This document shows positions 37,039 through 58,597 of a stretch of DNA of 64,000 bases, in pieces. Positions within the stretch are counted from its first letter, which is position 1. Every line of letters starts with the position of its first letter. Below the pieces are notes generated by a model. The model searched no databases, was not told the origin of the DNA, and saw only the letters and a list, made by a program, of their open reading frames with translations. The translations under genes were made by a program, and so were the position numbers. This stretch comes from Candidatus Aquidulcis sp. (GTDB taxonomy: Bacteria > Chloroflexota > Anaerolineae > UBA4142), in the NCBI GenBank assembly GCA_020723345.1, contig DYJA01000004.1, positions 1 to 64,000 of the forward strand, written 5' to 3'.

Positions 37039-37053
37039 ACAGGAGTGATACAC

Positions 37054-37818: not shown

Positions 37819-37878
37819 AGTATGAAGTCAGAAGTAGGAAGTAGGAATTCTTCATACTTCATACTTCTGACTTCTGCC
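37819..37878. repeat. Heptad hairpin between etfB and etfA
   Basis: GTATGAAGTCAGAAGTAGGAAGTAG paired with CTTCATACTTCATACTTCTGACTTC; 7-bp units. Confidence 0.9.
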
Positions 37879-37898
37879 TTCGGAAACGAGGAGATCCC

Positions 37899-38873: not shown

Positions 38874-38876
38874 TGC

Positions 38877-39015
38877 AGTTTATAGTCAGCGACGAAGCGG
38901 CAGAGTCGCGTCAGCAGTTTGTAGTCAGCGACGAAGCGGTTTGTGCGGAGTCGCGTCAGCCGCGCCGGTGCACGGCACTCCGCGAAAATCGCTACGTGCC
39001 TGACTACAAACTACT
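38877..39015. repeat. Direct and inverted repeats between etfA and the EMO-like gene
   Basis: Two copies of about 40 bp (CAGTTTATAGTCAGCGACGAAGCGG... and CAGTTTGTAGTCAGCGACG...) plus an inverted TGACTACAAACTACT at the right end. No open frame is convincing here. Confidence 0.8.
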
Positions 39016-39045
39016 CGAAATGACGACGTTGTGGGAGACTACTGA

Positions 39046-41001: not shown

Positions 41002-41002
41002 T

Positions 41003-41073
41003 ATCCAGTTTTCAGTGTTCAGTATTCAGTTGGCAGGAAACTGAATACTGAACACCGAATACTGAACACTGCT
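41003..41073. repeat. Heptad hairpin before hdrA
   Basis: GTTTTCAGTGTTCAGTATTCAGTTGG paired with ACTGAATACTGAACACCGAATACTGAACAC; 7-bp units. Confidence 0.92.
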
Positions 41074-41084
41074 TTGGAGGCAAT

Positions 41085-43103: not shown

Positions 43104-43104
43104 T

Positions 43105-43161
43105 ACGTGATACGTGATGCGTGACCTTAACGTTTCACGCATCACGCATCACGCATCACGT
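43105..43161. repeat. Heptad hairpin between hdrA and mvhD
   Basis: ACGTGATACGTGATGCGTGA paired with TCACGCATCACGCATCACGCATCACGT. Confidence 0.93.
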
Positions 43162-43175
43162 CAGACGGAGGAAAT

Positions 43176-43664
43176 ATGACTGAACAATTCGAACCCACCA
43201 TCGTCGGTTTCACCTGCAACTGGTGTTCATATCGCGCGGCGGATTTGGCGGGCATGTCGCGCATCAAGTACGCGCCGAACGTCCGGCTCATTCGCCTGAT
43301 GTGTTCCGGGCGCGTCGATCCGCAATTCGTGTTCAAGGCGCTCGCGGAAGGCGCAGACGGCGTGCTGATTTCCGGTTGTCATCCCGGCGATTGTCACTAC
43401 GTCGAACAAAACTACAAGACGATGCGGCGATTCGCGCTGCTGAAGAAAACGCTTGCCGCGCTCGGCATCGAAGACGCGCGCGTCAAACTGGTGTGGGCAT
43501 CGGCGGCGGAAGGCAACATTCTCGCGGAAGAGATCGACAAGATGGTCGCGGAGGTCAGGGCGTTGGGTCCGTTGAACTGGAAGGGCAGTGAACAGTTAAC
43601 AGTGAACAGTGAACAGTCAGCGGTCGGCGGTCGGTCGTCGGCGGTCAAGGAGATGTCGTTATGA
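43176..43664 (+). CDS. mvhD: MvhD-like [2Fe-2S] hydrogenase/Hdr connector subunit
   Basis: 162 aa. Cys motif FTCNWCSYRAADLAG, then RLMCSGRVDP and ISGCHPGDCHY, conserved in MvhD, which carries electrons from the hydrogenase small subunit to HdrA. The conserved part ends at about residue 137 (ALGPLNWK). The last 25 residues (GSEQLTVNSEQ and SAVGGRSSAVKEM) are encoded by a heptad array (43588-43650), so the C-terminus is a repeat-derived tail. Overlaps mvhG by 4 bp (ATGA). Confidence 0.93.
   Translation: MTEQFEPTIVGFTCNWCSYRAADLAGMSRIKYAPNVRLIRLMCSGRVDPQFVFKALAEGADGVLISGCHPGDCHYVEQNYKTMRRFALLKKTLAALGIEDARVKLVWASAAEGNILAEEIDKMVAEVRALGPLNWKGSEQLTVNSEQSAVGGRSSAVKEMSL
43588..43650. repeat. Heptad array at the 3' end of mvhD
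   Basis: AGTGAACAGTTAACAGTGAACAGTGAACAGT then CAGCGGTCGGCGGTCGGTCGTCGGCGGTC; two unit types joined, as at 4998-5053. Confidence 0.92.
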
Positions 43665-44629
43665 GCAAACCGAAATTTGCAATGTACTGGGCGGCGGCGT
43701 GCGGCGGCTGCGAAATCGCGGTGCTGAATGTTCACGAAGGCATTCTCGACGTGGACGCGAATTTCGATGTCGTGTTCTGGCCTGTCGCGATGGACGCGAA
43801 ATACAAAGACGTGGAAGCGATGCCGGACAAGTCCATCACGCTGACCTTGTTCAACGGTGCGATTCGGAACGACGAAAACGCGCACATCGCGCAAATGCTG
43901 CGCGCGAAATCGCAAGTGCTCGTCGCGTTCGGCGCGTGCGCGTGCGAAGGCGGCATTCCGGGCTTGGGCAATCTCACAACCAAGCAAGCAATTCTCGACA
44001 CCGCGTTCTCTACTGTCTCGACGGATAATCCCAAAGAGTTGCGACCGCAAACGACGTTCAAGATGCCGGAAGGCGCGATTCATATTCCGACGATGTACGA
44101 AACGGTCAAATCGCTCGATCAAGTCGTGCCGGTGGATTACTATATGCCGGGCTGTCCGCCGGAGTCGCATCAGATCGCGGCGGTCGTCGGCTTGGTGATC
44201 AAAGCGTTAAAGGGCGAAGCGCAACTGCCGCCCGCCGGCGCGGTCATCGGCGCGAGCCAGAGCACGGTGTGCGACGAGTGCAAGCGCGCGCGCGGCGAGA
44301 AAACAATCACCGCGTTCACGCGCATGGCGACGTTCCAGCCGCGCGAAGATCAATGCTTGCTCGAACAAGGCATTTTGTGTTCCGGCATGGCGACGCGCGG
44401 CGGCTGCGACGCGCGCTGTCCGACCGCGAATATGCCGTGTGTCGGCTGCTACGGTCCCGCGCCGGACGTGATCGATCAAGGCGCGCGGATGATGAGCGCG
44501 GTCGCGTCGGTCGTCGACAGCAAAGACCCGGCGGAGATCGACAAGATCATGGAAGGCGTCGCGGATCCGGCGGGAACGTTTTATCGTTTCAGTATGCCAA
44601 GTAGTTTGATGAGACATGCAAGGACGTGA
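43661..44629 (+). CDS. mvhG: [NiFe] hydrogenase small subunit (MvhG-like)
   Basis: 322 aa. Proximal cluster motif AACGGCEIAVLN (Cys14, Cys17), FGACACEGGIPG, and MPGCPPE. Further Cys for two more clusters follow: CDECKRAR, then CLLEQGILC, GGCDARCPTANMPCVGC. No TAT signal, so cytoplasmic. Pairs with MvhA and passes electrons to MvhD/HdrA. Confidence 0.94.
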   Translation: MSKPKFAMYWAAACGGCEIAVLNVHEGILDVDANFDVVFWPVAMDAKYKDVEAMPDKSITLTLFNGAIRNDENAHIAQMLRAKSQVLVAFGACACEGGIPGLGNLTTKQAILDTAFSTVSTDNPKELRPQTTFKMPEGAIHIPTMYETVKSLDQVVPVDYYMPGCPPESHQIAAVVGLVIKALKGEAQLPPAGAVIGASQSTVCDECKRARGEKTITAFTRMATFQPREDQCLLEQGILCSGMATRGGCDARCPTANMPCVGCYGPAPDVIDQGARMMSAVASVVDSKDPAEIDKIMEGVADPAGTFYRFSMPSSLMRHART

Positions 44630-44708
44630 TGCGTGATGCGTGATACGTAACACGTGTTGCGTGTTGCGTATTGCGTGGCGAATAAACGGAACACGCAACA
44701 CGAAACAC
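44626..44708. repeat. Heptad hairpin between mvhG and mvhA
   Basis: GTGATGCGTGATGCGTGATACG, then CGTGTTGCGTGTTGCGTATTGCGTGG paired with GGAACACGCAACACGAAACACGG. Confidence 0.92.
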
Positions 44709-44717
44709 GGAGGAATT

Positions 44718-46187
44718 ATGCAACGAATAACCATAGACCCGATCACTCGCCTCGAAGGGCACGGCAAGATCGAAATCTTTTTGGATCCGGAAGGGAACGT
44801 CGCGAATACGTATTTTCAGATTCCGGAATTGCGCGGGTTTGAGCAGTTCTGTGTCGGCAGACCGGTGGAAGAAATGCCGGTACTGACCGGGCGCATCTGC
44901 GGCGTCTGTCCCGAAGCGCATCACATGGCTGCCGCCAAAGCCGCGGACGCAGTGTATCACGTCGAAATTCCGCGCACCGCCGCGAAATTGCGCGAGTTGT
45001 TGTACAGCGCGTTCTATGTCACCGATCACGCGACGCACTTTTACGCGCTCGGCGGTCCCGATTTCGTGATGGGTCCCGACGCGCCGGTCGCGGAGCGCAA
45101 CATCCTGGGTGTGATCCACAAAGTTGGACTGGAGATCGGCGGCAAGGTGATTCAGGCGCGCAAAGCCGGACACACGGTGATCGAAATGATCGGCGGGCGC
45201 AAAGTGCATCCGTGTACTTCGATCCCCGGCGGCTTGTCGAAAGGCATCACGGTCGAACAGCGCGACGAGATCGAAAAGATGGGACGTTGGGCGATTGAAT
45301 TCGCGCAGTTCTCGCTCAAACTTTTCGCCGACATCGTCCTGGGGAACAAAGCGTACGTGGATTTGATTCTGGGCGACGCGTACACGCATCGCACGTACTC
45401 GATGGGCATGGTCGACGAAAAGAATCACGTGAATTTCTACGACGGCAAAGTCAGCGTCGTCGATCCGGAAGGCAAACGGCTCGGCAAATACGCGCCGAGC
45501 GAGTACACTGATTGGATCGCGGAGCACGTCGAACCCTGGACGTACTTGAAATTCCCGTACCTGAAAAAAGTCGGCTGGAAAGGGTTTACCGATGGCAAAG
45601 ATTCCGGCGTGTACACCGCGACGCCGCTGTCGCGCTTGAACGCGGCGGACGGCATGGCGACGCCGCTCGCGCAAGCCGAGTACGAAAAATTCTACGCGAC
45701 GCTCGGCGGCAAGCCGGTGCACCAACGCCTCGCGACGCACTGGGCGCGCCTGATCGAATTGCTGTACGCGGCGGAACGCTGGGTCGAACTCGCGACCGAT
45801 CCGGAAATCGCGTCGGACAATTTCCGCGCCGTGCCAACCGCGACACCGACTGAAGGCGTCGGCATCGTCGAAGCGCCGCGCGGCACGCTGACGCATCACT
45901 ACTGGACGGACGAACGCGGCATCGTGACGAAAGTGAATCTCATCGTCGGCACGACGAACAACTACGCGCCGATCAGCATGAGCATCAAAAAAGCGGCGGA
46001 GAGTTTCATCAAGCGCGGCGTCGTCGTGAGCGAAGGAATTTTGAATCGCGTCGAAATGGCGTTCCGCGCGTACGATCCGTGTTTCGGCTGCGCGACGCAT
46101 TCGCTGCCCGGACAAATGCCGCTGCAAGTGACAGTGCGCGATGCGCGCGGGAATGTGGTGGACGTCCTGAAACAGTTTTGTGACTAA
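44718..46187 (+). CDS. mvhA: [NiFe] hydrogenase large subunit (MvhA-like, group 3)
   Basis: 489 aa. Both nickel-binding motifs are intact: RICGVCPEAHHM (Cys61, Cys64) and DPCFGCATH (Cys455, Cys458). A 28-residue C-terminal peptide after His461 is presumably removed by a maturation protease not encoded here. With mvhG, mvhD and hdrA this is a group 3c type H2-consuming enzyme delivering electrons to Hdr. GGAGG ribosome binding site before the ATG at 44718. Confidence 0.95.
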   Translation: MQRITIDPITRLEGHGKIEIFLDPEGNVANTYFQIPELRGFEQFCVGRPVEEMPVLTGRICGVCPEAHHMAAAKAADAVYHVEIPRTAAKLRELLYSAFYVTDHATHFYALGGPDFVMGPDAPVAERNILGVIHKVGLEIGGKVIQARKAGHTVIEMIGGRKVHPCTSIPGGLSKGITVEQRDEIEKMGRWAIEFAQFSLKLFADIVLGNKAYVDLILGDAYTHRTYSMGMVDEKNHVNFYDGKVSVVDPEGKRLGKYAPSEYTDWIAEHVEPWTYLKFPYLKKVGWKGFTDGKDSGVYTATPLSRLNAADGMATPLAQAEYEKFYATLGGKPVHQRLATHWARLIELLYAAERWVELATDPEIASDNFRAVPTATPTEGVGIVEAPRGTLTHHYWTDERGIVTKVNLIVGTTNNYAPISMSIKKAAESFIKRGVVVSEGILNRVEMAFRAYDPCFGCATHSLPGQMPLQVTVRDARGNVVDVLKQFCD

Positions 46188-46191
46188 GCCC

Positions 46192-46274
46192 CGCAGGGGA
46201 GCGGGGGAGCAAGGGGGAATCTTGAGCGTAGCCGAAGGCTCTCCCCTGCCCCTCTGCTCCTCTGCTCCCCTGCA
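46192..46274. repeat. GC-rich hairpin with heptads between mvhA and the cNBD gene
   Basis: GCAGGGGAGCGGGGGAGC paired with CTGCTCCTCTGCTCCCCTGC, with a GAGCGTAGCCGAAGG core (CTTCGAC-type repeat) in the middle. Confidence 0.85.
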
Positions 46275-46304
46275 AGTTTGCGACACACATCAGGAGAAGC
46301 AACT

Positions 46305-46760
46305 ATGATTTCCCTCGAACTCTTGCGCCGCTATCCCTTCTTCGCCGGGTTAGACGAAGCGGAATTGAAAGCGATTGCGATGGTTTCGGAAGAAGTGCGC
46401 GCACCCGCCGGGGCGATCTTGTTTGAAGAAGGTCAAACCGCGGACGCGCTTTTCCTGCTCCTCTCCGGCAGCGTCGACTTGTCGTTCAACTCGCCGCTCG
46501 GAAACGGTTTTCAAATTCACATTGGCGAGATCAACCCCGGCGAGCCGTTCGCGATCTCTGCGCTGATTCCGCCCCACATGCTCACCCACACCGCGCGCGC
46601 CGGCAACGCGATCCACGCGCTCAAGATCGCTGCCATCCCGCTGCGCGCGATTTGTGAGAGGGATGCGCGCGTGGGCTATGTCGTGATGCATAAAGTGGCG
46701 CAAGCCGCGATGGAGCGTTTGCACTTTACGCGCGTCCAACTTGCCGCCGCGCGGGCATAG
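46305..46760 (+). CDS. Small stand-alone cyclic-nucleotide-binding-like protein
   Basis: 151 aa, one CRP-like jelly-roll (LRRYPFF to about residue 125) plus a C-terminal helix AAMERLHFTRVQLAAAR; no helix-turn-helix. The phosphate-binding cassette reads EPFAISALIPPHMLTHTARA, lacking the canonical Glu (FGE) and Arg (PRxA), so cAMP binding is doubtful. It follows the hydrogenase large subunit and is strongly similar to the protein at 55.5 kb and to the C-terminal domain of the NrfD-type subunit. Possibly a regulatory or accessory subunit of the redox enzymes. AGGAG before the ATG. Confidence 0.82.
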   Translation: MISLELLRRYPFFAGLDEAELKAIAMVSEEVRAPAGAILFEEGQTADALFLLLSGSVDLSFNSPLGNGFQIHIGEINPGEPFAISALIPPHMLTHTARAGNAIHALKIAAIPLRAICERDARVGYVVMHKVAQAAMERLHFTRVQLAAARA

Positions 46761-46861
46761 CCCGCAGAAATTTTCCTTGGCGCGTGACGATTCTCCCCAA
46801 CTCCCTCACCCGCAACGCCAGAGCCGAACTTTCGGTGTTAGGGCTTTGTCAAAGTCGCGGA

Positions 46862-46913
46862 TTGTCATTTCGAGAATACATACCGCGCGGCGGTATGTAC
46901 TCTCGAAATGACA
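46862..46913. repeat. Large perfect-type inverted repeat (MITE-like)
   Basis: TTGTCATTTCGAGA..ACATACCGC paired with GCGGTATGTA.TCTCGAAATGACAAG. A partial copy lies at 295-334. The rest of 46761-46957 shows no gene. Confidence 0.85.
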
Positions 46914-46957
46914 AGAGACGTTCGACTCCGAAAGTCCTATTTCAGTGCGAGCGATAA

Positions 46958-46986
46958 TTGACGCGATCACCTATCTGCGTTAGAAT
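46958..46986 (+). promoter_or_regulatory. Promoter of the second CxxCH kinase/regulator operon
   Basis: TTGACG (46958-46963), 17 bp, TAGAAT (46981-46986). Same design as at 32807-32835. Confidence 0.8.
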
Positions 46987-47081
46987 AGACTCGAATGTCG
47001 ATGTATGGGTGATCCAGCGCTTGTCCTGTTTGAGCAGGCGCTCTTTCATCGAGGATCGGGTGCGACCTCAGGGGGGCATGA

Positions 47082-48998
47082 ATGTTTCGGCACGTGCCGC
47101 GCCCAGGATTGTCGCGGCATCCCAGTTGGTCCAAGCCCACCGTTGGGCTGGGCGCCAAGATGGCGCTGCTGGTCGTGATTGGCTGTTTGTCGCTGATCGG
47201 TCTGTTTGGTTATCTTGGCACGGCTGCCCTCGATGAAAATGTTCAGCGTACGCTGCATGAACGCGTCGTCCTGGCGCAGACAACTGCGCGGCACGTCGAC
47301 GCGACCCTCTCCATCATCGAAAGTATTCTAACTGAGAGCGCGACCCAGGATTGCTGGTGTGATCCCGAGCGCGCCCCTTTCGCGCTATTGAACACGTCGC
47401 GCCGACTGAATTTTCTCGCCTCGCGCGTTTTTCTCCTCGACCGCGCCGGGCGCGTCCTCGCGGCGAATCCGCCGCTCACTTCTACCGTATCGTTCGACCA
47501 ATTCGCCGCGTTGACCGCCGCGCTGGATGGTCAACCCTTCGCGGTTTCGCGCTACACCCGCCCGCTCGATTCCGCGGGCTCATCCACCATCGCCGTCGTG
47601 CCGATTTATGATGAATTTGGAATTGTGAATTACGCGTTGTTGGTCAGTCTCAATTTGACGAGTCCGCAACTACGCACGTTTACGCAGCCGATCGGTCTCG
47701 GCGAAACCGGGTACATGGATTTGGTGGACCTGAGCGGAACGATTCTAGCCAGCACGCGCCACACGCGCGTTGGCGCGCAAAGCGATCACCAAGAGAGTCT
47801 CGTTACCCTGATTCGCGCGCGACGGCAAACCGTATCGGCGTGTCACGATTGCCACACCGCGACAACCGCCGATGTCCCCGTGCGCGAAGTCTTGGCGTTC
47901 GCGCCCCTGGAACGCGCGCAGTGGGGCGTGACGGTCCACCAAAGCGAAGATGAAGTCTTTGCCGCGATGCGGATGTTGCAAACCCGGATTTTCATATTGC
48001 TGATCATCGCCATTGCCGGTGCGTTGCTGCTGGTGTATGTGACGACGCGCGGCGTGATCGCGCCGGTGCAGGCGCTCACCGCCGCGACGCGCCGCATCGC
48101 GGAAGGCGATCTGGAAACGCCGCTGCAAACCTGGGGGCACGACGAAATCGGCGTGCTCGCGCGCGCGTTCGACGCGATGCGCGCGCGCCTGCAAGATTCG
48201 ATGGCGGAAATCCGCGCGTGGAATCGCGAGTTGAACGCGCGCGTGCACGCGCGTACCGCCGAGTGCGAACGCGCGCGCGCCGACATCGAACGACTGTATC
48301 TCGAACTGCGCGCGGATGAGCGCACGCGGCGCGAGTTGCTGCACCGCATCATCACCGCGCAAGAAGAAGAACGCAAACGGATCGCGCGCGAATTGCACGA
48401 CGAGACGAGCCAGGTGCTGATCGGCATGGTGTACCGGCTGGACCGCGCGACGGAGATGATCGCGCGCGGCAAATTGCGCGCCAACGAGACGCGCGCCTTG
48501 CTGGAGAAATTACTCGAACTCGCTCAGACCGCGCGCGCCGAAGTCAATCACGTGATTCTCAATCTGCGCCCGCTGTTGCTCGACCAACTGGGGCTGATTC
48601 CCGCGTTACGCAGTTACGCGGAAGAACGCTTTGCCGAGACCGGGTTGAGTTGGAACATTCGTGTGCTCGGGGAGCCGCGCCGGCTCACGCCGCAAATCGA
48701 AGCGGCGTTGTTTCGCGCTGCGCAGGAAGCCATCAACAACATCGCGCGCCACGCCCACGCGCGGCGCGCCGATTTTGTCTTCGCGTATCTGGACGATCAC
48801 GTGCGCGTGCAGATCCACGATGACGGGCAAGGTTTCGATCCGATCCGCGTGCGCGGTTCGCGCGATGGCGCGGTCGGCTTGGGCTTGCTAAGCATGGAAG
48901 AACGCCTGCGCGCGGTCGGCGGGGAGTTTGAATTGCAAACCGCGCCCGGCGTGGGCACGACGGTCACGCTCACCGCGCTGATTGAGAATTCAAATTAG
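47082..48998 (+). CDS. Sensor histidine kinase with CxxCH motif (paralogue)
   Basis: 638 aa. Same layout as the kinase at 32.9 kb: TM1 (about 25-47), Cache-like sensor with GLGETGYMDLVDLSGTILAST, CHDCH at residues 254-258, TM2 (about 305-325), HAMP, coiled coil, HisKA_3 His439 (RKRIARELHDETSQVL) and HATPase (DDGQGF). The sensor also has CWC near residue 91, absent from the paralogue. Located between hydrogenase and formate dehydrogenase genes; partner is the next gene, 8 nt away. Confidence 0.92.
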   Translation: MFRHVPRPGLSRHPSWSKPTVGLGAKMALLVVIGCLSLIGLFGYLGTAALDENVQRTLHERVVLAQTTARHVDATLSIIESILTESATQDCWCDPERAPFALLNTSRRLNFLASRVFLLDRAGRVLAANPPLTSTVSFDQFAALTAALDGQPFAVSRYTRPLDSAGSSTIAVVPIYDEFGIVNYALLVSLNLTSPQLRTFTQPIGLGETGYMDLVDLSGTILASTRHTRVGAQSDHQESLVTLIRARRQTVSACHDCHTATTADVPVREVLAFAPLERAQWGVTVHQSEDEVFAAMRMLQTRIFILLIIAIAGALLLVYVTTRGVIAPVQALTAATRRIAEGDLETPLQTWGHDEIGVLARAFDAMRARLQDSMAEIRAWNRELNARVHARTAECERARADIERLYLELRADERTRRELLHRIITAQEEERKRIARELHDETSQVLIGMVYRLDRATEMIARGKLRANETRALLEKLLELAQTARAEVNHVILNLRPLLLDQLGLIPALRSYAEERFAETGLSWNIRVLGEPRRLTPQIEAALFRAAQEAINNIARHAHARRADFVFAYLDDHVRVQIHDDGQGFDPIRVRGSRDGAVGLGLLSMEERLRAVGGEFELQTAPGVGTTVTLTALIENSN

Positions 48999-49006
48999 AG
49001 AAAACG

Positions 49007-49663
49007 ATGCCCAAGAAAAATCCCAGCGTGATTCGCGTCCTCGTCGTGGACGATCATGCCATCGTCCGCGAAGGCATTTGTCAATTATTGGGGGAGCAGC
49101 CCGATATTAAGATTGTCGGCCAAGCCGCGGACGGCGAACAAGCCCTCGCGCAGGTCGCCGCGCTGCACCCCGATGTCGTTTTGATGGACATTGCGATGCC
49201 GAAAATAGACGGCTTGCAGGCGACGCAAAAGGTCATGGCGGAATTTCCGGAGACGCGCGTTCTCGTCCTGACCCAGCACGAAACCACCGACTATATTCTG
49301 CCCTTATTGCGCGCCGGCGCGGCGGGATACATCCTCAAAGCCGCGAGCGCCGCGGAACTCCTCCGCGCAATTCGCGTGGTGGATGTGGAAGGCGCGTTCC
49401 TGCCGTCCAACGTGATTCGCACGCTGCTCGACGGCGTCACCCAAGCGCGCGCCGCGCAGGGACAAGCGCCGCTAACAGAGCGCGAGCGCGAGATTTTGCG
49501 CCTGATCGCCGAAGGATTGGGCGTGAATGAAGTCGCGAAAAAATTGTGCATCAGCGCGAAAACGGTCATTACGCATCGCGGCAACATCATGGAAAAAATC
49601 GGCGTGCATAACACGGTTGAGTTGATCAAGTACGCGATTCGGGAGGGAATCGTGAAGGTGTAG
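49007..49663 (+). CDS. NarL/FixJ-family response regulator
   Basis: 218 aa. Receiver Asp61 (DVVLMDIAMPKIDG), Lys in YILKAASA, LuxR helix-turn-helix (LTEREREILRLIAEGLGVNEVAKKLCISAKTVITHRGNIM). Likely regulates the adjacent formate dehydrogenase operon. Confidence 0.95.
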   Translation: MPKKNPSVIRVLVVDDHAIVREGICQLLGEQPDIKIVGQAADGEQALAQVAALHPDVVLMDIAMPKIDGLQATQKVMAEFPETRVLVLTQHETTDYILPLLRAGAAGYILKAASAAELLRAIRVVDVEGAFLPSNVIRTLLDGVTQARAAQGQAPLTEREREILRLIAEGLGVNEVAKKLCISAKTVITHRGNIMEKIGVHNTVELIKYAIREGIVKV

Positions 49664-49711
49664 GGCAAGTTTTCAGAACTTGCCTCAGGACAAATTTTGT
49701 AAATTTGTCCT
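49664..49711 (+). terminator. Two adjacent hairpins after the response regulator
   Basis: GGCAAGTT/AACTTGCC (49664-49684) and AGGACAAATT/AATTTGTCCT (49687-49711). Without a strong U tract; probably termination or mRNA end structure. The 130 nt to the fdhA start also hold a small ACCGTA/TACGGT hairpin (49766-49784). Confidence 0.6.
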
Positions 49712-49844
49712 ACTCAAAAAGTGAAAAACTAAATACCGCGTTCTACCGATGGGCAGTCCTCAAAGACCGTAGTACATTTACGGTTGAAGACTTACCCGGC
49801 TTACTCAAACTGGGTCGGTCTGAGATGGTTTCAAGGAGGAGCCC

Positions 49845-52800
49845 ATGCCCCAACTCACTCGGCGACAGTTTTTCCAAGTGACTGCCGCAGTCAGCGGTAG
49901 TCTGTTACTCCCCAGCGCCGCCCAAGCCGCCGGCGGCGACAAGAAATTTCCCCTGCACAAAAAGATCGGCGAAGGCGCGACGATTTGCCCGTACTGCTCG
50001 TGCGGCTGCGGTCTCATCATCGCGACCGACGAACAAGGACACATCGTCAACGTCGAAGGCGATCCGGAGAATCCAATCAACCGCGGCGCGCTCGATCCCA
50101 AATCGATCGCCGTCCGACAACTTTCCAACAGCCCGCTGCGTTTGAAAAATGTAATGTATCGCGCGCCCGGCGCGACGCAGTGGGAAGAAAAGTCGTGGGA
50201 CTGGGCGATGGAGGAAATTGCCAAGCGCGTCAAGAAAACGCGCGACGAAACTTTCGTCCGCACGGTCAAGGTTGCCGACAAGGATGTGCCGGTCAATCGC
50301 GCCGAGGGCTTTGCGTTCATCGGCGGCGCGGCGAACAACAACGAGGACTGCTATCTCGCGACCAAGTTGATGCGCACGCTGGGGGTCGTGTACCTCGAGC
50401 ATCAGGCACGGCTCTGACACTCTTCCACGGTGGCCGGTCTGGGCCCCACATTCGGTCGCGGCGCGATGACGAACGATTGGGTTGATCTCAAGAACGCCGA
50501 TGCCATTTTCGTCATCGGCGCGAACCCCGCGAGCAATCATCCCGCTTCCTTCACCTGGATCAACGACACGCGCGAGCGCGGCGCGAAACTCATCGTCGTC
50601 GACCCGGCGTTCACGCGCACCGCCGCCGCCGCCGATCTCTACGCGCCGATTCGTCCCGGCACGGACATTGTTTTCCTCGGCGCGCTGATGAGTTACGCGA
50701 TTCAGAACAAACTCTACAACGAGGAGTACATCAAAGCGTACACGAACGCGCTGACGCTCGTCAATCCCGATTTCAAAGGTCCGGCGGACCTAAATGGATT
50801 TTTCTCCGGTTTCAACAAGGAGACGAGCGCGTACGCCACCGCGACCTGGCAATACCAAACCGATAAAGTCAAAGTCACGGTCAAAGAAAAAGACGCGTCC
50901 GGCAAAGACGTTGACGTCGAAAAAGAATTTAGCGTCCCCAAGCAAGCCGCGAATCTCGACGACGCCGGCACGGTGTGGTCGCAACTGAAAAAGCATTACG
51001 CGCGCTACACGCCCGAAATGGTCGAGCGCGTGTGCGGCACCCCGAAAGATCAATTCCTCCAGGTCGCCAGGACATTCTGCGCGACCGGCGCGCCGGACAA
51101 ATCCGGTACGATCCTGTACGCGATGGGACAAACCCAGCACACCGTCGGCACGCAAAACGTCCGCGCGATGGCGATGCTCCAACTGATCCTCGGCAACATC
51201 GGCATCCCCGGCGGCGGCGTCAACGCGCTGCGCGGCGAATCGAACGTGCAAGGATCGACCGATATGGCGTTGCTCTTTGGCGATCTACCGGGCTATCTCG
51301 GCGCGCCGACGGATCGCCACGGCGATTTCAAGACGTACACGGCAAAGTTCGATACGACGAGTTACTGGGTCAACGGTCCGCGCTTTGCCACGAGTTTGCT
51401 CAAGGCGTGGTACGGCGACGCGGCGAAAAAAGAGAACGATTACTGCTTCAACTATCTCCCCAAGACGAGCGGCAACTATTCCTGGATTTCGATGTTCCAA
51501 GCGATGTACGCCGGAAAACTCAAAGGACTGATTGCGATGGGGATGAACCCGGCGGTTTCGGGTCCCAACGCGCGCATGGAACGCAAGTCGCTGGAAAAAC
51601 TCGATTGGCTCGTCGTGATGGATTTGTTCGAAACGGAGACCGCCGGTTTTTGGAAAGCGCCCGGCGTCGATCCCAAAACAGTCAACACCGAAGTCTTTCT
51701 GCTTCCCGCGCTCGACGCGATGGAAAAAGAGGGTTCAATCGTCACGAGCGGGCGCCGCATCCAATGGCGACCGCGCGTCGCGGCGGGTCCCGGCGATGCC
51801 AAGACCGATCTCGCAATTCTCGACCGGCTCGCCAAAGCGATCAAAGCCGTTTATGCCGGATCAACCGACGCGAAGGATCGTCCGATTCTCGATTTGAATT
51901 GGCTCTATGGCGACGATCCGGAACCGGATGTGTGGCTCGTCGCGCGCGAGATCAACGGCTATGCGCTCGACGATGTAAAAGACGCGGCAGGCGCGACGCT
52001 TTTGGCAAAAGGCGCGCTCTTGCCCGCGTTCGCGACAATTGCCTCCGCCGCGAATTTCGACGCGATCGCGTGCGGCAACTGGCTCTACGCCGGATATTTC
52101 GCGCCCGCCGACGATGGGCGCGGCATCTGGCGACCCGCGGCGCGACGGCGCGGTCAAAAAGATCCGGGCAACCTGGGGCTGTATCCGTACTGGGGCTACA
52201 CGTGGCCCGCGAATCGCCACATCATCTACAATCGCGCGTCGGCGCGACCGGATGGCAAGCCGTGGGCGGAGAACAAGAAATTGATCTGGTGGGACGCGGA
52301 GAAGAAAACCTGGACTGGTTACGATGTCCCGGATTTCGCGCCGACCAAAGCGCCGGACGCGAAAGCGAATCCGGCAGGCGCGGGTCTCGCCGCGCAATCC
52401 GGCACCGACGCGTTCTTGATGAAGGCGGACGGCAAGGGCTGGCTCTTTGCGCCGGCGGGGTTGGCGGAAGGACCGTTCCCGGAACACTACGAACCGGTCG
52501 AATCGCCGGTCACGAACTGTCTCTCCGCGTGCCAGTCGAACCCGGTCGTCAAAGTGTGGGCGACGGACAAGGGCAAACCGGTTGGCGATAACATCGGCAC
52601 GAGCGACAAGTTCCCGATCGTCTGCACCACGTTCCGCCTAGTCGAGCACTGGCAATCCGGCACGATGTCGCGCACGCTGCCCTGGCTCGCGGAAATCCAA
52701 CCCGAATTGTTCGTGATGATCGGCGCGGAACTGGCGAACGAGCGCGGTATCAAGAACGGCGAGATCGCCAAGATCGTTTCCGCGCGCGGCGAGATCAAAG

Positions 52801-53000
52801 CGGTCGCGCTGGTGACGCCGCGGATGAAACCGCTCACGGTGGACGGCAAAAAAGTCCACATGGTGCGCATGCCCTGGCATTACGGCTGGCAAGGTCTCGC
52901 GACCGGTGACGTGATCAACGACATTTCGCCGCACGTCGGCGACGCGAATACGATGATCCCGGAATACAAGGCGTTTCTCGTGGACGTGAGGAAAGCGTAA
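49845..53000 (+). CDS. fdnG: Selenocysteine formate dehydrogenase, catalytic subunit (FdnG/FdhA-type)
   Basis: 1051 aa if UGA at 50415-50417 is read as selenocysteine (residue 191; context HQARL-Sec-HSSTVAGLGP then TFGRGAMTND). TAT signal RRQFFQV with hydrophobic core, so exported. The [4Fe-4S] site is CPYCSCGCG (about 48-56), but the usual fourth Cys (GxLCPKG) is replaced by Asp (GALDPKS). bis-MGD molybdopterin domains run to the C-terminus (PWHYGWQGLATGDVIND). Oxidises formate to CO2 and passes electrons to the Fe-S subunit. GAGGAG ribosome binding site. Confidence 0.95.
50415..50449 (+). promoter_or_regulatory. UGA Sec codon and bacterial SECIS hairpin
   Basis: UGA at 50415-50417. 18 nt later the loop GGUCU begins (50436), the same spacing as in E. 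coli fdhF. Stem GG(429-430), bulged U431, GGCC(432-435), loop GGUCUG, GGCC(442-445), CC(446-447). The bulged U and GGU-containing apical loop are the SelB recognition elements. Confidence 0.92.
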
Positions 53001-53002
53001 AA

Positions 53003-53048
53003 ACGGAATACGCATTACGTATTACGTATTACGTATTGCGTGTTCCGT
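53003..53048. repeat. Heptad hairpin between fdhA and Fe-S subunit
   Basis: ACGGAATACGCATTACGTATTACGTATTACG, then TATTGCGTGTTCCGT; GTATTAC units and pairing ends. Confidence 0.92.
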
Positions 53049-53062
53049 AAGGAGCAATCACG

Positions 53063-53875
53063 ATGAGCAAATACGGAATGTTGATAGACGAAACGCGCTG
53101 CACCGGTTGCCGCGGCTGCCAGGTCGCGTGCAAACAGTGGAACGATCTGCCCGGCGAACAGACGCGCAATCGCGGCACGTACACGAATCCGCCCGCGCTC
53201 TCGGCGAAGACGTGGAACCTGATTCAGTACACCGAGGTCGAAACCAACGGTAGAGCCGGATTCTACTTTTTAAAGCACGCGTGTATGCACTGTGAGAAGC
53301 CCGCGTGCGCGTCCGTCTGTCCGGTCGGCGCGTTGTACAAAACGACGGAAGGTCCCGTCGTCTACGACGATACCAAATGTATCGGCTGTCGCTATTGTAT
53401 GACCGCGTGTCCTTTCAGCATCCCGACGTTTGAGTGGGGCAAGGGCTTGCTCGATCAGGCGCTCATTCGCAAATGCAACTTTTGCATCGATCGCGTCAGC
53501 AACGGACTGACTCCGGCGTGCGCCAAGACTTGTCCTTCGAAGGCGATCACGTTCGGCGAACGCGACAAGCTGATCGCGCAAGGCGAAGCGCAGATCCGCA
53601 AATATCCCGACAAGTACGTGAATCGCGTCTACGGCAAAGACGAAGTCGGCGGCACTTCGATTCTTTATCTCTCCGCGATTCCCTTCGATCAATTGGGGCT
53701 GCCGCGCGTGGGCACGACGCCGGTGACCGCGCTCAGCGAACAAGTGATGGAATACACGCTGCCCTTTGCGGGCGCGTGGGCGGCGACGCTTGCCGGACTG
53801 GCGATCCTCTTTCGCTTGCGAAATCGCGGCGCGCAACACGCGGCGGATGACGTCCACAAGGAGAAATCAGCATGA
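53063..53875 (+). CDS. fdnH: Formate dehydrogenase iron-sulfur subunit (FdnH/HybA-like)
   Basis: 270 aa. Four [4Fe-4S] cluster motifs: CTGCRGCQVACKQW, CMHCEKPACASVCP, CIGCRYCMTACP, and CNFCIDRVSNGLTPACAKTCP. One C-terminal TM helix (about 228-248) anchors it on the outer face of the membrane. No own signal: exported with the TAT partner. Overlaps the next gene by 4 bp (ATGA). Confidence 0.95.
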   Translation: MSKYGMLIDETRCTGCRGCQVACKQWNDLPGEQTRNRGTYTNPPALSAKTWNLIQYTEVETNGRAGFYFLKHACMHCEKPACASVCPVGALYKTTEGPVVYDDTKCIGCRYCMTACPFSIPTFEWGKGLLDQALIRKCNFCIDRVSNGLTPACAKTCPSKAITFGERDKLIAQGEAQIRKYPDKYVNRVYGKDEVGGTSILYLSAIPFDQLGLPRVGTTPVTALSEQVMEYTLPFAGAWAATLAGLAILFRLRNRGAQHAADDVHKEKSA

Positions 53876-55470
53876 CCACTCTGAATGCAACCCTCAATCG
53901 CTTCCGGATCTCGCCGATCATCTTGATCATGCTCGCGTTGATGGCGCTCGCCGTCGTTGTGGCGCTGGTGCGCTATCTGTTCGGTATCGGCGCGATCAGC
54001 AACTTGAGCGACGCGTACCCGTGGGGCATGTGGATCAGTTTCGATTTGCTGTGCGGCGTCGCGCTCGCGGCGGGCGCGTTCACGACGGCATCGGCGGTGT
54101 ACATTTTCAACGACAAACGCTTTACGCCGATTTTGCGCCCGGCGATTCTGACCGGTTTTCTCGGCTACTTGATGGTGATCGTCGCGCTGATGGTTGACCT
54201 GGGTCGCCCGGAGCGCATCTGGCACCTCATCGTCTACTGGAATCCGCACTCGGTCATGTTCGAAGTCGGCTGGTGCGTGATGCTGTACACGACCGTGCTC
54301 GCGCTCGAATTTTCGCCGCTCGTGTTCGAACGTTTCGGATGGAAGTTGCCGCTGAACATCGTCCACCGGCTCACGATGGTGTTTGTGATTCTCGGCACGC
54401 TGCTTTCCACCTTGCACCAATCGTCGCTCGGCTCGCTCTTTCTCGCGACACCGGGCAAGGTGAGTCCGTTGTGGTTCTCCGCATTCTTGCCGGTCTACTT
54501 TTTCCTTACGGCGGCGGCGGTCGGACCCGCGATGGTCATCGTCGAATCGTTCATCAGTTCACGCGCGTTCTACCGCGGGTTGGAAACGGAGTTGCTCGGC
54601 ACTTTTGCGAAGGTGATCCCGCCGGTGCTTGGCGTGTACCTCTTGCTAAAAGTGGTCGATCTCACCGTCTCCGGCAAATGGGTGTATGCGTTTCGCGATG
54701 GGATGAGCGTGTTGTTCTGGATCGAGATCATTGGCTTTGTCGTCTTGCCGATCGTGTTGTTCTCGATGCCGAAGGTTCGGCAGAATGGGCAATCGTTATT
54801 TGGCGCGGGGTTGCTTGTCGTCGGCGGCGTGGTTCTCAATCGCTTTAACGTGAGTCTGATCGGCTGGCCTCGCCCGGCGGACACGGCGTATTTCCCGAGC
54901 TGGATGGAATTCGCGATCACGTTCGGCATCATCGCGGCAGGTGTGGTGGCGTATGCGCTCGTCGCCAGGTTTTTTCCGTTGTTTGTGGAAGATCCGGTTA
55001 CGAAGCGAGCCCATGGAGTATCGCCGGAGATTTTGCGCCGCTCGCAGTTCTTGGTCTTTCCCGAAGCCGCGCGCGTTCAAGCCATCGCGGCGATTGCCGA
55101 GGAGCAGGATATTGCCGAGGACCAGGTGATTTTCCGGCAAGGGGATCCCGCGCAGGCGCTCTATATTTTGCTCGATGGAAGCGTCAATTTGTACTCGACG
55201 CGCGGACCTGGCGCGACCAATGAGTTACACCTGGGCACGATCAAACCCGGTGATCCGTTTGGCATCTCGACGCTGATCGATCCGTTCGTCCTGACTGCCT
55301 CGGCGCGGGCGGCGACCGCGTGCCGGGTTCTCAAGATTGACGGCAAGCAATTACGCGCGCTGGGCGCAGCCGATCCCCATTTGGGACAGACGCTCGCGCT
55401 GCGCGCCGCCCAAGCCGCGCTCACGCGCATGTCGTGGGCGCGTACCCGCCTGGCAGGCGCGCCGAGTTAG
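53872..55470 (+). CDS. NrfD/HybB-type membrane subunit fused to a cNMP-binding-like domain
   Basis: 532 aa. Residues about 1-390 are an NrfD/PsrC/HybB quinone-interacting membrane protein (about nine or ten TM helices; DLGRPERIWHLI and the WG..ISFDLLCG segment are typical). Residues about 400-520 are a cNBD: FRQGDPAQALYILLDGSVNLYS, then GDPFGISTLIDPFVLTASARA. This domain closely resembles the two stand-alone proteins at 46.3 and 55.5 kb and lacks canonical FGE/PRxA residues. It probably reduces menaquinone with formate electrons. I know no described NrfD protein with a C-terminal cNBD. Confidence 0.9.
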   Translation: MTTLNATLNRFRISPIILIMLALMALAVVVALVRYLFGIGAISNLSDAYPWGMWISFDLLCGVALAAGAFTTASAVYIFNDKRFTPILRPAILTGFLGYLMVIVALMVDLGRPERIWHLIVYWNPHSVMFEVGWCVMLYTTVLALEFSPLVFERFGWKLPLNIVHRLTMVFVILGTLLSTLHQSSLGSLFLATPGKVSPLWFSAFLPVYFFLTAAAVGPAMVIVESFISSRAFYRGLETELLGTFAKVIPPVLGVYLLLKVVDLTVSGKWVYAFRDGMSVLFWIEIIGFVVLPIVLFSMPKVRQNGQSLFGAGLLVVGGVVLNRFNVSLIGWPRPADTAYFPSWMEFAITFGIIAAGVVAYALVARFFPLFVEDPVTKRAHGVSPEILRRSQFLVFPEAARVQAIAAIAEEQDIAEDQVIFRQGDPAQALYILLDGSVNLYSTRGPGATNELHLGTIKPGDPFGISTLIDPFVLTASARAATACRVLKIDGKQLRALGAADPHLGQTLALRAAQAALTRMSWARTRLAGAPS

Positions 55471-55479
55471 GACACGTTC

Positions 55480-55516
55480 GTAGTGCGCGCTTTGAGCGCG
55501 CTCAAGCGCGCACTAC
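55480..55516. repeat. 37-bp palindromic repeat
   Basis: GTAGTGCGCGCTT (55480-55492) and AAGCGCGCACTAC (55504-55516) around GAGCGCGCTC. Lies just upstream of the cNBD ribosome binding site. Confidence 0.9.
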
Positions 55517-55531
55517 AAAATGGGAGGAGAC

Positions 55532-56011
55532 ATGGTTTCGCAAGAACTGTTGCGGCGGTACCCGTTTTTCGCGTTGTTCGACGAAGCGCAGCGCAAGGCG
55601 ATCGCGCAGATCGCGGACGAAATTCACTGCGAGTCCGGCACCCATTTTTTCGAGGAGGGCGAATCTGCTGACGCGCTGTATCTTTTGCTCACCGGCAGCG
55701 TCGATTTGTATTTCAATGTTCTGACGGAGCAGCACAAGGAATTGCACATCGGAGAGATCAATCCCGGTGAGCCGTTCGCGATCTCGGCGCTGATTCCGCC
55801 GCACATTCTGCAGCACTCGGCGCGCGCCGGCAAAGCGTGTCGCGCGCTCAAGATCAATTCGCTCGCGCTGCGCGGGCTGTGCGACCATGACGCCCAGATG
55901 GGTTATATCCTAATGCGCCATGTCACCAAAGCCGCCATGGAGCGGCTGCACTTTACGCGCATCCAGCTCGCCGCCGCGCGCGTGGGCGCATCGGAAATGG
56001 CACTGGCGTGA
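55532..56011 (+). CDS. Small stand-alone cyclic-nucleotide-binding-like protein (paralogue)
   Basis: 159 aa. Same fold and sequence as the 46.3-kb protein: LLRRYPFF, FFEEGESADALYLLLTGSVDL, the shared GEINPGEPFAISALIPP segment, and helix AAMERLHFTRIQLAAAR. Lacks a DNA-binding domain and canonical cyclic-nucleotide contacts. Lies between the NrfD-cNBD fusion and fdhE. GGGAGGAGA ribosome binding site. Possibly a partner of the membrane cNBD. Confidence 0.82.
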   Translation: MVSQELLRRYPFFALFDEAQRKAIAQIADEIHCESGTHFFEEGESADALYLLLTGSVDLYFNVLTEQHKELHIGEINPGEPFAISALIPPHILQHSARAGKACRALKINSLALRGLCDHDAQMGYILMRHVTKAAMERLHFTRIQLAAARVGASEMALA

Positions 56012-56021
56012 AAAACCGATG

Positions 56022-56087
56022 AAAGATGAAAGAGGAGAGATGAAGGTAGGTTCTCTCCTCTCTCCTCTTTCCTCTCTCCTTTCTCAT
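56022..56087. repeat. Heptad hairpin before fdhE
   Basis: GATGAAAGATGAAAGAGGAGAGATGAA paired with TCTCTCCTCTTTCCTCTCTCC; 7-bp units. Confidence 0.85.
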
Positions 56088-56095
56088 CTCTGAGT

Positions 56096-56938
56096 ATGAT
56101 CGGCTACGAAAAAATCTTGGATGAGTTGCAGCGCCGGAGCGCGCTCCATCCCGAAAACGCAGAGACGCTCGCGCTCTACGGCGATCTGCTCGCGGCGCAG
56201 GCGCGCGTGTCGGTGTTGCCGCGCGAATATGCCGCGATTGCTCAGATCGCGCCGACGCGCATTGAGCGCGGTTTGCCGGTGCTGCCGCCGGAAGCGTTTC
56301 GCGCCGATTGCGCCGCGCTCGCGCAACTGTGCGACGAGACGTGCGTCATCACCGCGCGCCACCGCGCTGATCTGCGCGACGCGCTCGACGCGCTCCGCGC
56401 CTGGCTCGCGCAAGAACACAATTCAATTTTGGCGTTCGCGGCGGAGTATCTCCGCGACGAGGGTCTTGGCAAAGCCAGGGAGATCGGGCTGGACACCCCG
56501 CTCCTTGGCTTTGTCCTCAACCATGCCTTGCATCCGTTCTTGCGGACGTACGCGCAAGTGGTGGGACCTTTCGTGGATTTGAGCATCTGGTTTCGCGCAC
56601 AGTGTCCCGTCTGCGGCGGCGCGCCGGATTTCGCGGCATTGGCGAAAGACACCGGCGCGCGCACCTTGCTCTGCGCGCGCTGCGATTTCGAGTGGTCGTT
56701 TTGGCGCGGCGCCTGCCCGTTCTGCGAATGTGACGATCCCGATCAGCAGAAATATTTCGCGTCGGACGATGAGGTCTATCGGCTTTACACGTGCGAAAAA
56801 TGCGGACGCTACATCAAGACGATTGATCTGCGTCAGGTCGCGGACGAGCGCATCTTGCCGGTCGAAAGGATTCTGACGATTCCGCTCGATCTTGCCGCGC
56901 GGCAGGTTTGCGCGGCGGCGTCCCAGCCAGCGTCATAG
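56096..56938 (+). CDS. fdhE: Formate dehydrogenase accessory protein FdhE
   Basis: 280 aa. C-terminal rubredoxin-like zinc or iron motifs CPVCGGAPDF, CARCDFEWSFWRGACPFC and CEKCGRYIKT typical of FdhE, which assists assembly of exported formate dehydrogenases. The N-terminal helical part is more variable. Context agrees with the formate dehydrogenase upstream. Confidence 0.93.
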   Translation: MIGYEKILDELQRRSALHPENAETLALYGDLLAAQARVSVLPREYAAIAQIAPTRIERGLPVLPPEAFRADCAALAQLCDETCVITARHRADLRDALDALRAWLAQEHNSILAFAAEYLRDEGLGKAREIGLDTPLLGFVLNHALHPFLRTYAQVVGPFVDLSIWFRAQCPVCGGAPDFAALAKDTGARTLLCARCDFEWSFWRGACPFCECDDPDQQKYFASDDEVYRLYTCEKCGRYIKTIDLRQVADERILPVERILTIPLDLAARQVCAAASQPAS

Positions 56939-56965
56939 GTTGGAGAAAAATGCGCGGGTGATGTT

Positions 56966-58597
56966 GTGAAATCCGTGTTATCGCCGCTCGCTCGATTGCG
57001 CCACGCGGCGCGTCGTACAAGTTTTTGGATTCTCGGAGCCGTGCTCGTCGTCGTCACGGCTCTTTACTATTTCTCGCCGCAGGTGCGCGCGCTGCCCCTG
57101 ATGCCCTATCCGCTGGAGCGCCACGCCGTCGAACGAATCATTTTCCTGCTGCCGGTCGCTGGCGCTGCCTTCGTATTCGGTCAAACTGGCGGGTTGATTA
57201 CGCTGGTTCTGATCACGCTCATCCTGTTGCCGCGCGCCGTGTGGCTTTCGCCATCTCCGGCGGACGCGGTTTTGGAAACCATAGCCGTCGCGCTCGTCGG
57301 TAGTTTCATCGTCTGGGCGATTGAGACCCAGGCGCGCGAGAAACGACTGCGCCAAGAACTAAGCCAACGACTCGAGCGTGCGTACGATCGTCTCCAGTCG
57401 CTGTACGACAGCGCGCAGACCGTCAATTCGACGCTCGATCTGCAACGCGTGCTCGATCAACTCGTCCAATCCACTGCCGAGGTGATGCGCGTGCGCGGCT
57501 GTTCGATCCGCTTGCTGGATGAGACCGGCAAACGGCTCAACGTTGCCGCGGTGTACGGCTTGAGCGAAATCTATGTGAAAAAAGGCGACCTGGTGCTGGA
57601 GCAGAATCCGCTGGCGCGCGAGGTGTTGGCGGGACAGGTCATCGCGATCGAGGACATCACACGAGACACGCGCTTGCAATATCCCGCGCAGGCAATTGCC
57701 GAAGGCATCCGCTCGATGTTGTCCGCGCCCATCTTGGGTAAGCGCGGACCTGTGGGGCTGATCCGCGCGTACAGCACCGACCTCGATCATTTCACCCAGG
57801 ACGATGCGACGTTCCTCACCGCGATTGCCAGCCAGGGCAGCATCGCCATCGAAAATGCGCTGGCGTATCAGGCGCTCGATAAACTTGACCAGATGAAATC
57901 CAGGTTCGTCCTGACCGTGACCCACGAGTTGCGTTCGCCCGTCAGTGTTGTCCGCAGTCTTTTGCGTACGTTGCGCGCGTCCTACGCGGGGACGCTGACG
58001 CCTGGACAAGACGATCTCGTCGCGCGCGCGCTGCGCCGCACCGATTTTCTGCAAACGCTGATTGACGATCTGCTCGACCTGGCAGCCGGGAAAAGCGAAT
58101 TCCGCGCGAGCGAAGAACGGGTGGAGATTTCATTGGGCGAGGCAATCGAGGATGTCGTACGGCGATTTCAAGTCCCGGCGGAGGAAAAGCGAATCGCGCT
58201 CGATGCTTGCTGCGAGAGCAACGCAGAATCCATCCGCGTTCTTGCGACGAAAGAGGGCATTGATCGAATTCTCAACAATCTCGTATCGAACGCGATCAAG
58301 TACACACCCACGGGCGGTCGCGTCATTATGCGATTGCAGCGAATGGATGGAGAAGCGCGTCTGCAAGTCGAAGACACCGGGATCGGCATTCCCGAAGACG
58401 CGTTGCCGCATCTGTTTGAAGAATTTTATCGCGCGCCGAATGCCAAATCTCAGGAGAAAGAAGGCACAGGGCTGGGACTGGCGATCGCCAGAGACTTAGT
58501 GCTGCGGTACGGTGGACGGATCGACGCGCAAAGCAAGGTGGGAACTGGTACGATGTTCACAATCACTTTGCCGTGTCAACGAATCGGAAACGAATAA
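56966..58597 (+). CDS. Sensor histidine kinase with GAF domain
   Basis: 543 aa, GTG start. Three to four N-terminal TM helices (about 18-125, KdpD-like 4-TM), coiled coil, GAF domain (about 155-300), HisKA with His320 (THELRSPVSVVRSLLR), HATPase_c with NLVSNAIKYTPTGG, DTGIGIP and GTGLGLAIA. No adjacent regulator, so its partner is unknown. Its last codons fall in the inverted repeat at 58572-58651. Confidence 0.92.
   Translation: MKSVLSPLARLRHAARRTSFWILGAVLVVVTALYYFSPQVRALPLMPYPLERHAVERIIFLLPVAGAAFVFGQTGGLITLVLITLILLPRAVWLSPSPADAVLETIAVALVGSFIVWAIETQAREKRLRQELSQRLERAYDRLQSLYDSAQTVNSTLDLQRVLDQLVQSTAEVMRVRGCSIRLLDETGKRLNVAAVYGLSEIYVKKGDLVLEQNPLAREVLAGQVIAIEDITRDTRLQYPAQAIAEGIRSMLSAPILGKRGPVGLIRAYSTDLDHFTQDDATFLTAIASQGSIAIENALAYQALDKLDQMKSRFVLTVTHELRSPVSVVRSLLRTLRASYAGTLTPGQDDLVARALRRTDFLQTLIDDLLDLAAGKSEFRASEERVEISLGEAIEDVVRRFQVPAEEKRIALDACCESNAESIRVLATKEGIDRILNNLVSNAIKYTPTGGRVIMRLQRMDGEARLQVEDTGIGIPEDALPHLFEEFYRAPNAKSQEKEGTGLGLAIARDLVLRYGGRIDAQSKVGTGTMFTITLPCQRIGNE

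Follow-up and report, generated by a model that had tools for sequence, protein, structure and literature searches.

A 64,000-nucleotide stretch of the genome of Candidatus Aquidulcis sp. (contig DYJA01000004.1, positions 1 to 64,000; hereafter the window) encodes three related cyclic nucleotide-binding domain (cNBD) modules beside hydrogenase and formate dehydrogenase (Fdh) genes. The source genome is 6.34 Mb. Analysis of open reading frames (ORFs), Pfam and NCBIfam placed two adjoining clusters on the + strand, a hydrogenase/Hdr cluster followed by an fdh cluster. The first (37045-46760, +) has the order EtfB-EtfA-NarI/HdrD-HdrA-MvhD-MvhG-MvhA-cNBD1, and the second (47082-58597, +) the order HK-RR-FdhA-FdhB-NrfD/cNBD2-cNBD3-FdhE-HK, where HK and RR stand for histidine kinase and response regulator. 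Two modules are stand-alone proteins, cNBD1 (P0001, 151 aa, 46305-46760, +) and cNBD3 (P0003, 159 aa, 55532-56011, +), and cNBD2 is the C-terminal part of an NrfD/HmcC-type quinone-reactive subunit (P0002, 53872-55470, +).

The first cluster starts with EtfB (37045-37818, +) and EtfA (37899-38873, +), ORFs that were named from sequence and homology with no family scan. They are followed by a membrane NarI/HdrD-like FeS protein with 4Fe-4S and CCG domains (39046-41001, +; Pfam CCG E 1e-16, Fer4_8), the flavin and FeS protein HdrA (41085-43103, +; NCBIfam HdrA2 E 8e-243), MvhD, or FlpD (43176-43664, +; Pfam FlpD E 7e-52), the hydrogenase small subunit MvhG (43661-44629, +; Pfam Oxidored_q6, VhuG E 3e-66) and the [NiFe] hydrogenase large subunit MvhA (44718-46187, +; Pfam NiFeSe_Hases, VhuA E 6e-121). 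No protease gene lies between mvhA and cNBD1 in the window. The order Etf-HdrD-HdrA-MvhDGA-cNBD recurs in loci L044 and L147, and likewise in L062 with the cNBD gene upstream. Just past cNBD1, at 46862-46914, lies a near-perfect hairpin with 25-nt arms and a 3-nt loop; it recurs in partial form about two dozen times in the rest of the genome, which indicates a dispersed element resembling repetitive extragenic palindromes.

The fdh cluster is headed by a conserved sensor histidine kinase and response regulator (47082-49663, +), and the order HK-RR-FdhA is also present in L063/L228, L194 and L274. FdhA (49845-53000, +) carries a twin-arginine translocation (Tat)-type leader and a predicted selenocysteine. 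Its in-frame TGA (50415-50417, residue 191) lies at the site expected for the selenocysteine of formate dehydrogenases, and the protein translated through it scored 1122 bits, above the cut-off, with the NCBIfam model of the formate dehydrogenase-N alpha subunit (formate-DH-alph). This codon implies selenoprotein machinery in the source genome. FdhB, a 4Fe-4S subunit with a C-terminal membrane anchor (53063-53875, +), was identified as an ORF, and an FdhB with 75% identity occupies the corresponding position in L063. P0002 consists of an NrfD part (about residues 1-372; Pfam NrfD E 1e-23) and cNBD2 (about residues 384-532, 55021-55467). It matched the HmcC branch of NrfD with an E value of 8e-103 over residues 17-377, yet its 345 bits fall below the cut-off of 550, so that it is placed in the broader Pfam NrfD family. 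A different dispersed hairpin element, with 16-nt arms and about 15-20 genomic copies, occupies 55477-55519 between nrfD-cNBD2 and cNBD3. The cNBD3 protein has a 78% identical orthologue in a sister genome and is followed by an FdhE-like accessory protein (56096-56938, +; NCBIfam FdhE E 3e-9, Pfam FdhE_central E 9e-6, both under the curated cut-offs).

An earlier note, made from the DNA letters alone, had described the modules as paralogues without a DNA-binding domain, one following MvhA, one joined to NrfD and one preceding FdhE. This description was borne out, with the FdhE match standing under its family cut-off. All three modules matched PF00027 (E 9e-11 for P0001, 1e-11 for P0003 and 5e-17 for the C-terminus of P0002), with scores of 42, 45 and 62 bits against a curated cNMP_binding cut-off of 27.5, and the structural model of P0001 confirmed the fold. 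P0001 and P0003 are 63% identical and share the segment GEINPGEPFAISALIPP and the terminal AAMERLHFTR, as the note had pointed out, and cNBD2 is 39% identical to P0001. No helix-turn-helix (HTH) family was found in the three modules in the Pfam scan, and the proteins stop after the C-helix; they thus lack the C-terminal HTH that defines CRP/FNR transcription factors. Each stand-alone ATG is preceded by a Shine-Dalgarno sequence (AGGAGA before 46305 and GGGAGGAG before 55532). The ratio of nonsynonymous to synonymous substitution rates (dN/dS) was 0.15 for each stand-alone gene compared with its sister-genome orthologue and 0.09-0.15 over the stand-alone orthologue pairs, indicating purifying selection, and cNBD2 compared with a more distant counterpart gave 0.36. 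The AlphaFold model of P0001 has a mean predicted local distance difference test (pLDDT) score of 94, and its best solved relative is 3mdp (TM-scores 0.82/0.93; Z 22.2, root-mean-square deviation 1.6 over 132 residues, 42% identity). Two more members are encoded in the same genome: a fourth stand-alone paralogue on another contig, after a second HdrA/MvhDGA operon (L039), and a fifth that lies in an HdrA cluster and is joined to a histidine kinase (L235:4453-5643).

The pocket of the modules differs from that of cyclic AMP (cAMP) receptors. In a gap-free alignment with cAMP-binding GlxR, the P0001 segment FGELSIFDPGPRT falls on FAISALIPPHMLT, with Glu replaced by Ile84, next to Ser85, and Arg by Leu93. 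Across 126 distinct family members, the position of Glu72 of CRP is occupied by Trp (65), Ile (49), Val (5), Leu (3) or Glu (1); the following residue is Ser in 125, and Pro is conserved five residues past the Glu72 position in 122. At the position of Arg82 of CRP, Tyr (36), Trp (28), Leu (26) and Ala (16) predominate, with Arg in three members. Glu is retained in 13 of 15 other cNBDs used for comparison. The claim in the note that the phosphate-binding Glu and Arg of CRP are missing therefore holds nearly throughout the family, and the modules lack the pair that marks cyclic-nucleotide receptors of the CRP and protein kinase A and G (PKA/PKG) type. A family Arg138 is conserved in 115/126 members; its alignment to CRP has a four-residue gap at the C-helix, where the register is undefined. 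The new residue set is itself conserved, which argues that the site has not simply decayed. A lack of cyclases as the cause of the altered pocket was considered and rejected, since the source genome has seven class III cyclase matches; judged from these genes, cyclic nucleotides are probably made in this genome, yet the modules are without the standard grip for them. The binding of a different ligand by a cNBD has a precedent in PDB 6hyq, a PKA regulatory subunit that is independent of cAMP and takes up guanosine.

In a maximum-likelihood tree (quick search), 67 representatives and 3mdp fell on one side of a branch with a Shimodaira-Hasegawa-like approximate likelihood ratio test (SH-aLRT) value of 91, or 96 without one outlier, and CRP, GlxR, the remaining cNBDs of the same genome and HoxI fell on the other. 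The tree and the signature, a bulky hydrophobic residue and Ser in place of Glu-Leu with Pro five residues on, place the modules in a single and distinct hydrogenase-linked WS/IS clade. Its member with a solved structure, Gmet_1532 of Geobacter metallireducens (3mdp, a structural-genomics entry), is likewise stand-alone and has the same pocket (Val-Ser, Tyr). The modules share the sensor-domain fold with CRP/FNR-family regulators (CRP, GlxR, FNR) and differ from them in the absent HTH and the replaced Glu and Arg of the phosphate cassette. They resemble the family 2B encapsulin cNBD (NF041163; E 4e-6 to 3e-9) as a cNBD on a non-transcriptional protein, but stand far under that family's cut-off and have no capsid domain. 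Elsewhere in the window, 15698-18565 encodes a protein of 955 aa in which four cNBDs in tandem are combined with a Pro-rich linker and a membrane segment; these four cNBDs fall outside the family.

The association with hydrogenase operons was evaluated on 70 distinct members collected by cNBD sequence alone, blind to their neighbours. A Mvh, Hdr, Fdh or NrfD gene was present within 2 kb of 54/70, with mvhA the nearest in 46. Those related loci that have a named record are from Chloroflexota, mostly metagenome-assembled genomes of Anaerolineae. The commonest order is HdrA-MvhD-MvhG-MvhA-protease-cNBD, in which the protease is the maturation protease HycI and its stop codon often overlaps the cNBD start by four bases. 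Two tandem cNBD genes lie downstream of mvhA in L200, L206, L087 and L088, and the second copy in L087 clusters with the group-3b type in the tree. In the source genome, 5/5 family members lie beside Hdr/Mvh/Fdh genes, compared with 2/11 other cNBD proteins (Fisher p 0.005).

The reverse survey started from MvhA. Among the 30 best MvhA genomes of 199 Anaerolineae genomes, 19 have a cNBD within 1.5 kb and the other 11 none even in wider windows; nine of the next 40 loci have one, giving 28/70 HdrA-linked MvhA loci. MvhA and cNBD distances are correlated (Mantel r 0.81, 0/2000 permutations as high, in a set that includes loci found via the cNBD), and the cNBD presence label changes six times on the MvhA tree. 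The cNBD gene is thus co-inherited with MvhA, as expected of a gene staying with its partner, and shared species history contributes too. The HdrA gene of many Anaerolineae is split into two ORFs 16 bases apart (L039:12160-14472, L041, L141, L142 and others), unlike the unbroken HdrA of the window; the split frames fit an in-frame stop codon, and HdrA of these genomes probably contains selenocysteine.

In a phylum-wide profile search, nearly all of the best 29 loci were hydrogenase or Hdr operons. About half of the best loci are of group 3b, where the gene for a 4Fe-4S dicluster protein lies on one side of the cNBD gene and that for an FAD/NAD protein on the other. The same arrangement occurs on Paraburkholderia and Rhodococcus plasmids, three phyla in all with Chloroflexota; contexts in other phyla were sampled through plasmids only. 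The group-3b proteins share the clade and pocket signature of the modules but form their own sub-branch, and their genes lie between the FeS and FAD subunit genes, not after the large subunit. A Streptomyces member is near nitrate reductase genes. A subgroup in the neighbouring family f2 (L057, L058, L060, L061) is mostly found next to a very large ORF, which may encode a helicase; no hydrogenase is nearby, and a change of role is possible there.

The link to formate dehydrogenase is real but narrow, and probably young. A cNBD was found at 3 of the 30 best NrfD loci, fused in the genome of the window and in Anaerolinea sp. SulCav (G006, L228), and adjacent but unfused in the sister genome (G001, L194). 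The NrfD-cNBD search proposed in the note thus returned one further fusion, 71% identical to that of the window over 521 aa. The three genomes belong to one family. In a fourth genome of this family (G008), HK-RR-FdhA-FdhB-NrfD-FdhE lies directly upstream of HdrA-MvhGA-cNBD-FdhE, and in a fifth (G003) the fdh cluster is without a cNBD. The conserved association that the note had expected for both complexes was therefore found to be strong for hydrogenase/Hdr operons and weaker for formate dehydrogenase. The NrfD part of P0002 has ten hydrophobic helices, the same number as in its model, and with the N-terminus inside, its loops carry about 12 Lys/Arg inside and about 6 outside. This even helix number and positive-inside charge would place the C-terminal cNBD2 in the cytoplasm, and the Tat leader would send FdhA to the opposite side, so that the sensor would read the cytoplasm. 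The model of the fusion was built from an alignment of NrfD rows alone, because a mixed alignment that included stand-alone cNBD rows was misaligned.

HoxI was the only characterized stand-alone cNBD of a hydrogenase that was found. HoxI of the NAD-reducing soluble hydrogenase HoxFUYHI2 was reportedly dealt with by Burgdorf et al. in 2005. The gene order on pHG1 is hoxF-hoxU-hoxY-hoxH-protease-hoxI-hypA. HoxI of the Cupriavidus necator H16 NAD-reducing soluble [NiFe] hydrogenase HoxFUYHI2 is a homodimer on the diaphorase module and the NADPH activation site (PMC3702609), and another paper presents it as a dissociable subunit (PMC3189943). Like the modules, HoxI is a stand-alone cNBD of similar size without HTH, acts at the protein level and is encoded directly after the large subunit and maturation protease of a group-3 hydrogenase. 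The order large subunit-protease-cNBD is found in many Anaerolineae loci; the window itself has no protease in between. HoxI differs in retaining GEL at the pocket, in a partner that is NAD-linked, not Hdr-linked, and in having no NrfD fusion. It was rejected as a family member, as it groups with CRP-like rows outside the clade (quick tree, long branch). HoxI thus represents a different cNBD lineage and is an analogue.

Taken together, these data make it slightly better than an even bet that the modules are cytoplasmic regulatory subunits of two redox complexes that sense a metabolite other than a cyclic nucleotide and tune the enzyme. The cNBD fold, a jelly roll with a long C-terminal helix, would use its C-helix to dimerize or to dock on the part of the enzyme that transfers electrons. 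In this arrangement cNBD1 would dock on Mvh-Hdr, and cNBD2, which is covalently joined, and cNBD3 would do so on the quinone-reactive membrane subunit, at its cytoplasmic face. The putative ligand would be a cytoplasmic small molecule; a cyclic nucleotide is not expected because the Glu/Arg pair became Trp/Ile and an aromatic residue or Leu beside a nearly invariant Ser. Its binding may tune activity or activation of the enzyme, by analogy with HoxI2 and NADPH in the Cupriavidus soluble hydrogenase. Relatives are encoded alongside hydrogenases in many bacteria, and this speaks for a regulatory subunit belonging to the enzyme itself. The separate clade, pocket signature, operon linkage, co-inheritance, group-3b position among structural genes, NrfD fusion, predicted topology and HoxI precedent all speak for this reading. 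A protein-level module with a pocket unlike that of cAMP receptors, as the note had proposed, is supported.

Several observations weigh against it. Sixteen of the 70 members are more than 2 kb from such genes, although some are on short contigs and L065, L070 and L203 are within about 3 kb. No adjacent cNBD is present at 42/70 HdrA-linked MvhA loci, several of them near that of the window and a few near contig ends, and the cNBD is therefore dispensable for the enzyme type. With the family profile HoxI scores 40 bits and CRP 42, so that HoxI is not the nearer of the two, and it keeps the Glu. The model of the NrfD-cNBD2 fusion has low confidence in its cNBD part, which was not interpreted. No biochemistry on any family member was found in the open-licence literature. 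Finally, adjacency to maturation protease, HypF and FdhE genes fits an assembly role equally well.

Such a role, with the module accompanying the large subunit of hydrogenase or the subunits of Fdh while cofactors are inserted, in concert with a HycI-type protease, HypF and FdhE, is unlikely. It would account for the frequent position after HycI, with the four-base overlap in many loci, and for the cNBD gene preceding HypF in L245 and FdhE in three loci (the window, L194 and L054). A transient factor would be an odd candidate for covalent fusion to NrfD, seen in two genomes, or to membrane kinases, group-3b operons place the cNBD gene between structural genes, and HoxI is part of the purified enzyme (PMC3702609).

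We regard as quite unlikely that the module senses a redox or ligand state and relays it to a histidine kinase controlling the operon. Histidine-kinase-fused members, some with an intervening membrane domain, are present in HdrA/Mvh clusters (L065, L066, L067, L069, L235), and the window has kinases and regulators next to cNBD1 and downstream of fdhE. Most stand-alone members, however, are in mvh operons without an adjacent kinase, the NrfD fusion has no kinase, and the HK-RR pair of the window (HK47-RR49) travels with fdhA and not with cNBD1 (L063, L194, L274).

There is only a small chance that the modules are ligand-free scaffolds, with a dead pocket and a fold kept for docking or dimerization. 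The canonical phosphate-binding residues are gone, as a dead pocket would require, but their replacements are highly conserved (Ser 125/126, Pro 122, Trp/Ile 114), and this suggests that the site has a function under selection. It is hardly credible that the modules are CRP-type transcription factors, truncated or decayed, that have no connection with the function of their neighbours. Matches to FtrB and CRP in NCBIfam, which are weak and far under the cut-off, might speak for this. It is contradicted, as is the sequencing error named in the note as a possible source of truncation, by single intact ORFs under purifying selection (dN/dS 0.09-0.15 for the stand-alone orthologues), full-length counterparts elsewhere, the recurrent fusion, the separate clade and the conserved gene position.

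The regulatory-subunit reading may extend beyond the window, tentatively and with the chances rather against it: the clade over several phyla would serve group-3b and Hdr-linked hydrogenases generally as an allosteric subunit that senses a ligand, one Anaerolineae family would have transferred it to the Fdh quinone-reactive subunit, and one cytoplasmic non-cyclic-nucleotide metabolite (a reduced nicotinamide nucleotide or other) would jointly set the activity of H2 and formate metabolism. The group-3b association is already in papers: the cNBD is reported as a gene-cluster member in Rhodococcus equi (PMC13332983) and labelled HoxI (PMC12319191). In the open-licence papers, no account was found of the family as such, its pocket signature, its occurrence in Hdr-linked hydrogenase operons or its fusion to NrfD, which for this scope is not proof of absence. 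The conserved pocket and the crystal structure of a member make the ligand question directly testable. If the reading is true, two groups of hydrogenases are equipped with a sensor subunit of their own, which is annotated as cyclic nucleotide-binding and easily mistaken for a transcription regulator, and it would offer a way to explain the switching of Mvh-Hdr and formate dehydrogenase in uncultured Anaerolineae.

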